A DNA stretch of 20,406 nucleotides from a virus, in the IMG/VR virus record IMGVR_UViG_3300032308_002830, positions 1 through 20,406 of that record; one strand, given 5' to 3'. Under the pieces are notes generated by a model. It searched no databases and was not told where the DNA came from. It worked only from the letters and a program-made list of their open reading frames with translations. This document shows, one piece after another, positions 13,043-15,511 of this stretch. Made by a program: the position numbers and the translations under genes. How positions within the stretch are numbered: the stretch's first letter is position 1; the number at the start of each line of letters is the position of its first letter.

Positions 13043-13390
13043 TTAGGCCGCGACGGCGTTTGGCCCGCCCAGCTTCACCAGAATGTCAGTATTGTCCGCG
13101 CCCGCATTGGCCGCTGTGCCAACATGCCAGCCGATGCAGCGATTGCCGGTGGCCGTGGTGGTCACGCGCTTGGCAGTGTCATCCCAAAAAACGCGGACAC
13201 CCACACCAATGCTGCCGGCTGCCTTGCGCAGCGTGAACACGCCACTGGTTTGAATGACAGCAGGCGCACCAGAAGCGGCATCGGCCAGCACCACGCCGAA
13301 AAGATCACCCACCAAAAGGCTTTGCCCAGCAATGATATTGGCAGGCGCCAGAATATCGATGGCATTGCCATCCTGAACATAATTGCGCAT
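13043..13390 (-). CDS. DUF2190-like capsid decoration protein (115 aa)
   Basis: The start at 13390 is decided by a strong GAAGGAG eight bases upstream; an in-frame ATG at 13432 would add 14 residues (MPGAFPFPCEGVFE) with no support. The protein begins MRNYVQDGNAIDILAPANI and carries the alternation G-Q-S-L-L-V-G-D-L-F-G-V-V near 23-35, FTLRKAAGSIGVGVRVFWD near 52-70 and a C-terminal DILVKLGG near 101-108. This is the pattern of DUF2190 (phage capsid cement or decoration) proteins. It follows the capsid gene, and decoration proteins bind the outside of the expanded shell. No membrane segment or enzyme motif is present. Confidence 0.75.
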   Translation of the reverse strand: MRNYVQDGNAIDILAPANIIAGQSLLVGDLFGVVLADAASGAPAVIQTSGVFTLRKAAGSIGVGVRVFWDDTAKRVTTTATGNRCIGWHVGTAANAGADNTDILVKLGGPNAVAA

Positions 13391-13426: not shown

Positions 13427-13443
13427 GGGCACACCATGCGCCC
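13427..13443 (-). other. Short hairpin after the capsid gene
   Basis: In the roughly 66-base gap between the capsid stop and the decoration gene, GGGCGCA and TGTGCCC pair over seven bp with one G-U, around a three-base loop. A pyrimidine-rich stretch (GGGGCTTTCCC region) follows a few bases later. It could influence mRNA stability or act as a weak terminator, but it is short and may be chance in GC-rich DNA. Confidence 0.25.
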
Positions 13444-13456
13444 AAGGCCATCAAGA

Positions 13457-15499
13457 TCAGGTCGGAGCGACGCCTGCGTTGAAGTAGCCGCCGCGGTAAT
13501 CAATGGCGCCAACAGCGAAGTCATGCACCACTTCAACCACAGTGCCATCCACGCCCATCGGCTGGCCCACACGCACCTGCGGCACTTCATTGTCGCCGAC
13601 ATAGCCGTACACATAGACCGGCGCGCTCAAAGGATCAGCAAACAGATACCAGCGGTTGTTCGGAATATTGGCTTCCGGCACCACCCGAAAGATGCCCGCG
13701 AAGGGGTTAACATTGCTGGCACCGGAGGGAACCATCGCGGAATCCGCGAACTGCGCCGCCACAAATTGCTGAATGAGCGAACAGACCAAATAGCGCGGCT
13801 GCAGGTTCAGTTTCAGGCCGCCCAGGCTGGACTGCGCTTGGATGGCATTAAAACCAAGGCCGAGCGCCGCGGCTGTCACCGCGCTGGCGGTGCCAGCCTT
13901 GTTGTTACGCGCGCCGCCAGTGGCAAACACCGCTGCGCTGCCTTCGGCCAGCGTCGGGCCGTCACCGGAAGCGGTATTCACCACACCATAGGCCGTGGCG
14001 TTTTCAAAATCCGCTACGCTGCGCCCGATCATGGTACCAAAGTCAGCGAAGGCGCCCAGATCATCATTGACCAACATCCGGCGCGTGACGGACACGCTGG
14101 CTGAATAGGTGTTCGGCGTGATCTGTTCGCGCTTTTCATTGATGGTTCCGCGCTTGATTTCGCCACCCTCGTTCAAAACCTGCAGTGACGGGAAATCACC
14201 GACCGTCAGGAAGGAATGAGCCTTGAAGTCATTGAAGCGGCGACGGGCGAAAAACTGCCGATATGAAGGGTTTGCCAGCGCATAGCCCGCTTCAAGCATT
14301 TTGTTGCCGGCATTCGCCAGCAGCAGCGGGAAGTCAGAGCCCGTGTGGAAAGCGCGGGCGATCAGCTTTTCACGGTCGCGGGAAGTGACACGTTCACCAC
14401 GCGCCTGCGCCAATTCGATCAGCATATCGGAAGGGCGAAGGCCCGCGAAGTTGCGCCACTGGCCTTCACCAACCTTACTGGCCACTGCCGGCATGTGGCG
14501 GGCGGCGATGGCAGTCGCCATGGCATCCGCAATGTTCGCAGGGTCTTCATAGGAATGGATGAACTGGCTGATCGCGCCAGGTACGTAAGCCTGCGGGCTT
14601 TTCTGCGCCACGGCTTCCAACGCGGCTTCCAGCGCGGCTTCGCGCGTGGCACCGGCTTTGGCCTGCGCAAGCACGAATTCGGCAGGCAGGCCATTGCGGC
14701 AGGCAATGCCTTCCAGATCGGCCAAGCTGGCGCTGATGGGCTGAACCGCTACGGCCTGGACCGGGGCGGCGGATGGGGCCGGGGAATTCCCGCCGGCCTG
14801 GGCAACGGTATCGGTCATGCCGATCTCCTCTGCAATCACCGGCACCATTGCCGGCGGGTTGAAAACGGTTTCGGCCACAGGGGCCGCTTTCGCTGCTTGC
14901 ACCAAGCGGCGAAGTGCCTCCGGCGTGCGGGCATAGCGATCTGGGGAAAGGGATGCGAAAACGCGGATTTCCGCTGGCGCAGCGGCTTCAGTGGCGAAAC
15001 CATTGATCACCGCGTCTTCAGCCGTGAACCAGGTTTCCGCCGCCATCAGCGCCGCCACTGCTTCTTCGGTCTGGCCGCTGCGCGCGGCATAGGTGCGGCG
15101 ATAGGCGCCACTGATTTTTTCAAGCATATCCGCCTGCTGGCGCATGGTTTCGGCATCACCAAGAGCGCCACCCCAAGCTTCGTGAACCATCATGAAGGCG
15201 TTTTCCGGCATGATGATTTCATCACCCGCCATGGCGATAAGGCTGGCAGCACTGGCCGCGATGCCTTCAATCACCACGCGCTTTGGGCCTTCATGCCGCG
15301 CCAGGATGTTATGCACAGCAATGCCGGCCAAAGCGTCGCCACCATAGGAATTGATGGAAATATTCAAAGGCGCGCCCTTGGGCACACCCTTCAGCGCCAG
15401 CGCAACATTCTGGGCAGTGATTTCAAAACCGACATCCCCCATCAGCGCAAGCGTGATCGGCTGCGCCGCGGTGCCCGCGCGCATTTCAATATCCATCAT
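13457..15499 (-). CDS. ClpP-like prohead protease / major capsid protein fusion (680 aa)
   Basis: A single 680-residue frame. Residues 1-190 are a ClpP-like (S14) protease: an INSYGGDALAG oxyanion-loop motif near 48-58, GIAASAAS with candidate nucleophile Ser83, and MMVHEA with candidate His106. The usual catalytic Asp position appears to be Thr170 (FATE). Residues 191-310 are a Pro/Ala/Gln-rich linker and helical scaffold-like part. Residues 320-680 form an HK97-fold major capsid domain with NEGGEIKRGTINEKREQITPN and RYLVCSLIQQFVA segments. Protease-capsid fusions of this kind are known in phages. The protease would release the capsid from scaffold during head maturation. AAAGGA precedes the first ATG. 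A strong internal ribosome site sits at the junction. Confidence 0.85.
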   Translation of the reverse strand: MMDIEMRAGTAAQPITLALMGDVGFEITAQNVALALKGVPKGAPLNISINSYGGDALAGIAVHNILARHEGPKRVVIEGIAASAASLIAMAGDEIIMPENAFMMVHEAWGGALGDAETMRQQADMLEKISGAYRRTYAARSGQTEEAVAALMAAETWFTAEDAVINGFATEAAAPAEIRVFASLSPDRYARTPEALRRLVQAAKAAPVAETVFNPPAMVPVIAEEIGMTDTVAQAGGNSPAPSAAPVQAVAVQPISASLADLEGIACRNGLPAEFVLAQAKAGATREAALEAALEAVAQKSPQAYVPGAISQFIHSYEDPANIADAMATAIAARHMPAVASKVGEGQWRNFAGLRPSDMLIELAQARGERVTSRDREKLIARAFHTGSDFPLLLANAGNKMLEAGYALANPSYRQFFARRRFNDFKAHSFLTVGDFPSLQVLNEGGEIKRGTINEKREQITPNTYSASVSVTRRMLVNDDLGAFADFGTMIGRSVADFENATAYGVVNTASGDGPTLAEGSAAVFATGGARNNKAGTASAVTAAALGLGFNAIQAQSSLGGLKLNLQPRYLVCSLIQQFVAAQFADSAMVPSGASNVNPFAGIFRVVPEANIPNNRWYLFADPLSAPVYVYGYVGDNEVPQVRVGQPMGVDGTVVEVVHDFAVGAIDYRGGYFNAGVAPT
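14816..14830 (-). promoter_or_regulatory. Internal Shine-Dalgarno and ATG at the protease/capsid junction
   Basis: The minus strand reads GAGGAG, six bases (ATCGGC), then ATG at 14818, in frame with the fusion at residue 228. Initiation here would make a separate 453-residue protein starting MTDTVAQAGGN, holding the scaffold-like region and capsid domain without the protease. The site is stronger than that of most genes in this window. It recalls the nested scaffold start inside the lambda C gene (established for lambda; inference here). Confidence 0.6.
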
Positions 15500-15511
15500 C
15501 TGTTCCTTTGC

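Follow-up and report, generated by a model that had tools for sequence, protein, structure and literature searches.

An internal start conserved at the protease boundary of phage protease-capsid fusion genes suggests two products from one gene

Starts nested within head-protease genes are already known in phages lambda and Mu. In lambda, Shaw & Murialdo reportedly described in 1980 (a reference listed in PMC8508860) an overlap between C and Nu3, in which the protease gene contains a nested scaffold. The in-frame internal start in this head-protease gene gives a protease-free product consisting of scaffold only, the capsid protein E being encoded by a separate gene. Mu gene I has the same anatomy, with an annotated internal start for Z (CAGGAGAACAAACCC-ATG, codon 179) in the protease gene; Z, too, is a scaffold alone, and the Mu capsid protein comes from another gene, T.

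Tripartite capsid genes, single genes that unite protease, scaffold and capsid and have ClpP-type and Phage_capsid_4 domains, are also known and are carried by Gifsy-2, MD8 and F10. The Gifsy-2 gene is that of Effantin 2010, cited in PMC8814770, and a single tripartite product was described for MD8 in a paper whose text makes no mention of an internal start (PMC8508860). The PAJU2 fusion, which precedes the portal gene, has been interpreted in print as a polyprotein that undergoes autocatalytic cleavage (PMC8306868). Peptidase_S78 fusions, whose capsid domain is unrelated or only distantly related to that of the gene studied here, are annotated as single products. In open-access full text, our searches turned up no earlier description of an internal start in fusions of this kind. 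Protease-capsid fusions are common, as 25/398 sampled genomes of one phylum scored over the NF045541 cut-off, and their stoichiometry is puzzling: a shell has hundreds of subunits, and every one of them would come with a protease.

We analyzed a stretch of viral DNA of 20,406 nucleotides (the window; IMG/VR virus record IMGVR_UViG_3300032308_002830) that carries such a fusion gene in a lambda-like head operon, flanked by a portal gene (TIGR01539/PF05136) and a decoration-protein gene (PF09956). Its features, in the direction of transcription, are as follows (SD, Shine-Dalgarno).

15504..15509, minus strand: SD-like AAAGGA of the primary start at 15499 (sequence; duplex dG -4.0)
13457..15499, minus strand: protease-scaffold-major capsid fusion gene, 680 codons plus stop (ORF listing, profile matches)
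14987..15454, minus strand: ClpP-like head-maturation protease domain, residues 16-171 (NF045542, PF00574)
14741..14860, minus strand: disordered linker, residues 214-253, holding the internal start (AlphaFold2 pLDDT <50)
14825..14830, minus strand: internal SD GAGGAG (dG -7.2; synonymous constraint in ClpP-type relatives)
14816..14818, minus strand: internal start codon ATG, codon 228 (in-frame start conserved across fusions)
13457..14818, minus strand: predicted short product, scaffold-capsid, 453 aa, MTDTVAQAGGN... (from translation)
14603..14725, minus strand: putative scaffold (delta-like) helices, residues 259-299 (AlphaFold2)
14549..14599, minus strand: second disordered segment, residues 301-317, with a module crossover near 305 (AlphaFold2; segment identities)
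13460..14542, minus strand: HK97-fold major capsid domain, residues 320-680 (PF25209, AlphaFold2)

By family score, the protease domain is a ClpP-related head maturation protease of predicted activity: it passed the NF045542 cut-off (175 bits vs 120; best stretch, residues 17-171) and matched PF00574 with 86 bits. The capsid part matched PF25209 (Phage_capsid_4) over residues 383-672 (144 bits vs a cut-off of 27). Two whole-protein cut-offs were missed, with 359 bits in each case, that of NF045540 (475 bits) by a match spanning nearly the full length (16-671) and that of NF045541 (525 bits) by a match to the scaffold and capsid part (237-676). The match to PHROG 133 covered nearly the full length of the ORF. 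An AlphaFold2 model of the 680-aa protein, built with 48 relatives (mean pLDDT, 82), placed in order a protease fold, a disordered region that includes Met228, scaffold-like helices at 259-268, 273-282 and 286-299, a second disordered region and the shell domain from residue 320. By profiles and model, the architecture is that of a prohead protease/MCP fusion, with a protease and an HK97-fold capsid in one open frame. Residues 301-317 are a candidate maturation cleavage region. The nearest bacterial relative, at 81% over the capsid portion, belongs to a Roseomonas MAG; therefore, the host of the virus is probably one of the Acetobacteraceae.

The preliminary description had reported, inside the fusion gene and exactly at the domain boundary, a GAGGAG with six-base spacing to an in-frame ATG. 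Indeed, GAGGAG-ATCGGC-ATG lies at 14830..14816 on the minus strand, with the spacer ATCGGC, and is in frame with the 680-aa ORF at codon 228. The placement at the boundary was borne out as well, the protease match ending at about residue 171 and the scaffold helices beginning at 259, on either side of the disordered residues 214-253. Pairing with the anti-SD was stronger at this site (-7.2 kcal/mol) than at the gene's own first start (-4.0). The exact motif occurred once in the window and was present in 7/100 shuffles; therefore, chance could yield such a site in one genome, and the window alone is only suggestive. The looser pattern AGGAG-N5-9-ATG occurred twice, against 1.67 expected, and both occurrences are starts of shell proteins: one is the internal start, and at the other, 13390, the decoration-protein gene begins. 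For the latter gene, the ATG at 13390 (GAAGGAGTTTTCGAA-ATG, minus strand) is a more likely start than the GTG at 13432 of the longer ORF.

Viral contigs, genomes sampled at one per species, and annotated phages supplied the related fusions, and the capsid ORF was located in each. The protease end was located by two HMMs (ClpP-type and HK97/U35-type) built from subsets of the collected set. The scan zone comprised 84 codons around and after the protease end, with other 84-codon windows of the same genes as the null, and SDs of -5.5 kcal/mol or below were counted as good. The linker Met was picked by its best SD, a choice that favors the hypothesis, and the positional null picked likewise. As a positive control, the same scan applied to Mu gene I ranked the annotated Z start (codon 179) first. 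Experiments on lambda favor a Nu3 of about 131 residues. In lambda C (L278, NC_001416), the scan ranked codon 309 first (dG -10.5), which would give a 131-residue Nu3. The RefSeq nu3 start at codon 239 is without an SD (+0.5), and this annotation looks too long next to the strong SD at codon 309.

The resulting set contained 330 fusions, 144 of the ClpP type and 186 of the HK97/U35 type. An in-frame ATG was found no more than about 80 codons from the protease end in 328/330, and the two exceptions (L171 and L175) had TTG and GTG at the homologous codon. A good SD was present in 111/125 clusters at 90% identity (24 expected), 70/83 at 80% (17 expected), 44/55 at 70% (10.3 expected; maximum of 200,000 simulations, 23), 36/41 at 60% (7.8 expected) and 24/25 at 50% (5.0 expected; maximum of 200,000 simulations, 14); an earlier cluster count had given 34/41 against 7.2 expected. 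None of the simulations approached the numbers observed. About one fifth of the 70% identity clusters had weaker SDs. F10 and Gifsy-2 both had the boundary SD-ATG, and so did fusions outside the main family: Arthrobacter Dewayne (codon 160), Microbacterium Yasuo (codon 166), Lactococcus Nocturne116 (codon 145; dG -4.0) and PAJU2 (codon 197; dG -10.5), the last of which was missed by the main family search and differs from the window gene in gene order. These four are likely independent fusion events. The Peptidase_S78 fusions have an SD-ATG at the boundary. Conservation so far over the positional null shows that the site is more than chance. Thus, the comparison of related fusion genes that the preliminary description had proposed did not refute its second start: the site is kept with either of two unrelated classes of protease and recurs in the separate fusions.

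The start is also kept where the protease has been exchanged. Relatives with an 85 to 89% identical capsid and an unrelated protease (19 to 20%) had GAAGGAGAGAGC-ATG at the boundary. Residues 1-305 of the window protein (protease, linker and scaffold) were 82 to 94% identical to L021, with only 17 to 33% in the shell domain, whereas its shell domain (306-680) was 86 to 89% identical to L005, with 19% in the protease and 35% in the scaffold. An SD-ATG stood at the protease/scaffold boundary in both modules. These identities place the exchange at the scaffold/shell joint, the start either traveling with each module or being kept in it. The gene at 13457-15499 is a mosaic, its protease-linker-scaffold matching one group of relatives and its shell another with an unrelated protease. 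PMC8508860, by contrast, suggests that a capsid gene is swapped only along with its own protease.

The alternative that survives best is a true polyprotein, in which there is a single product, the protease cuts itself off near the boundary, the conserved residues before the Met are there for cleavage, and codons rich in E/K give rise to SD-like DNA as a side effect. The PAJU2 MCP was proposed to be fused to its protease and released by autocatalytic cleavage (PMC8306868), and scaffold proteolysis is expected in any case. Moreover, upon synonymous-codon resampling, the observed mean SD was -6.78 kcal/mol vs -5.63 (summed z, -4.0; median p, 0.44), so the excess over the synonymous null in these GC-rich genes is real but modest, and conserved E/K/Q-rich residues account for a large share of the SD strength. 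However, the peptide ahead of the Met varies: the SD core was found in all three reading frames, with different residues (EEIG, KEKA, GGNL, PEGQ, QGGN) and aligned spacing peaks at 4 and 7. Within the ClpP class, the AGG-completing third base was G in 42/43 clusters against 21.8 expected (z, 7.0), as well as in 29/30 clusters at 80% and 15/16 at 70%, whereas the neighboring Glu codon showed no bias at 90% (z, 0.2) and a z of about 2 at 80% and 70%. Matched codon pairs elsewhere had no excess of G but a slight deficit (z, -2.0). A synonymous base that is fixed where it builds the SD, next to a Glu codon left free, favors a ribosome site over a peptide motif; as the synonymous null showed, the latter, taken as the sole cause, explains much but not this third-base pattern. 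In the U35 class, where the SD is often in another register, the third-base test was null or negative (z, +0.1 to -2.5), and the nucleotide-level claim therefore rests on the ClpP class. Replacement of ATG by TTG and GTG in two fusions, and persistence of the pattern with unrelated proteases, also speak against the polyprotein, which we consider improbable.

Across all genes, the GAG/GAA contrast was 149:6 vs 100:12; it leans on close kin, chiefly one Acetobacteraceae clade, and carries little weight. In that clade, which is of the U35 type, the first Glu was GAG in 100/101, the second most biased of 32 Glu columns. The second Glu there was GAA in 57/60, though Glu columns in these genes are typically 81% GAG (median), which perhaps keeps the spacer A-rich or unstructured. 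Residue composition at the second position after the Met gave a weak signal (p, 0.03). Acetobacteraceae relatives (e.g., L171, L126 and L107) had a second SD-like CAGGAGACCACC followed by GTG (PPQETT-V) downstream of the boundary start; in L109 and L185, the SD at the Met was lost and a strong SD stood at such a downstream GTG (-7.1).

Loci that appeared to lack a protease were mostly contig ends or frame-broken. The exception, L248:1022-3448, has a single in-frame TGA between a U35-type protease ORF and the capsid ORF and is either not fused or a fusion that has been broken. Relatives in which protease and capsid are separated in this way, together with phages such as lambda in which the capsid protein has its own gene, would fit an internal start that is no longer used, a relic of the time before two genes lost the stop codon between them and became one. 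Such a relic would be expected to decay, yet the site was kept in 24/25 clusters sharing <50% identity and showed synonymous constraint in the ClpP class, so we regard this explanation as very unlikely.

The location in a disordered linker between folded domains would also suit a pause site, at which SD-like sequence slows elongating ribosomes and aids folding of the protease, the Met being incidental. However, RNA structure at the boundary start was below synonymous expectation (t, +4.1), the reverse of control Mets (t, -4.05), and pausing needs neither this reduced structure at the ATG nor a start codon at initiation spacing nor its substitution by TTG or GTG; we give this explanation hardly any credence. 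Chance in a GC-rich gene, compatible with the 7% of shuffles of this window that contain the motif, is rejected by family-wide counts far above the positional null and is the least probable explanation of all.

The site lies in the linker, persists through protease swaps and in separate fusions, and is constrained at the nucleotide level in the ClpP class. From this, we infer that the fusion gene is a two-product gene encoding the full protein and, from the internal start, a scaffold-capsid protein; we put the probability of this reading at about 0.84. The preliminary description's second start yielding protease-free scaffold-capsid is thus well supported by sequence comparison. As a similar boundary start was present in nearly every fusion examined, such genes probably give rise to two proteins, one with and one without the protease, and not to one polyprotein. 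Ribosomes starting at 15499 would make the full protease-scaffold-capsid protein, and those entering at the internal GAGGAG-ATG would make scaffold-capsid without protease. Sharing scaffold and shell domains, both products should co-assemble into one procapsid, which would then enclose a limited number of proteases borne by a fraction of the subunits. As happens in HK97, lambda and Mu, the protease would then trim the scaffold, probably within the second disordered segment. An excess of the short form that would leave the protease a minor component, as the preliminary description had proposed, is plausible in this gene and fits its SD values of -7.2 and -4.0. Such an excess does not follow generally from SD strength alone, since among 69 genes of the family the internal SD was stronger than that of the first start in only 32, weaker in 23 and equal in 14.

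Judged by its sequence, the window gene has the nested arrangement of lambda C/Nu3 and Mu I/Z, with an in-frame start and SD downstream of the protease domain. Unlike in lambda and Mu, the predicted nested product extends through the capsid domain. What is new is that the shell protein itself would be the nested one, in an arrangement that recurs. We lean toward a general rule whereby annotated protease-capsid "polyproteins" are two-product genes, each independent fusion keeping a dedicated internal start; the protease-bearing subunit would be a minor variant of the shell protein that co-assembles with it, and protease modules would be swappable because the internal start is kept. A conserved internal start would resolve the protease/capsid stoichiometry puzzle and would extend the nesting trick of lambda and Mu to the capsid protein itself. 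The main shell precursor of these phages may be missing from present annotations, and the internal start is a clear prediction that can be tested in laboratory phages.
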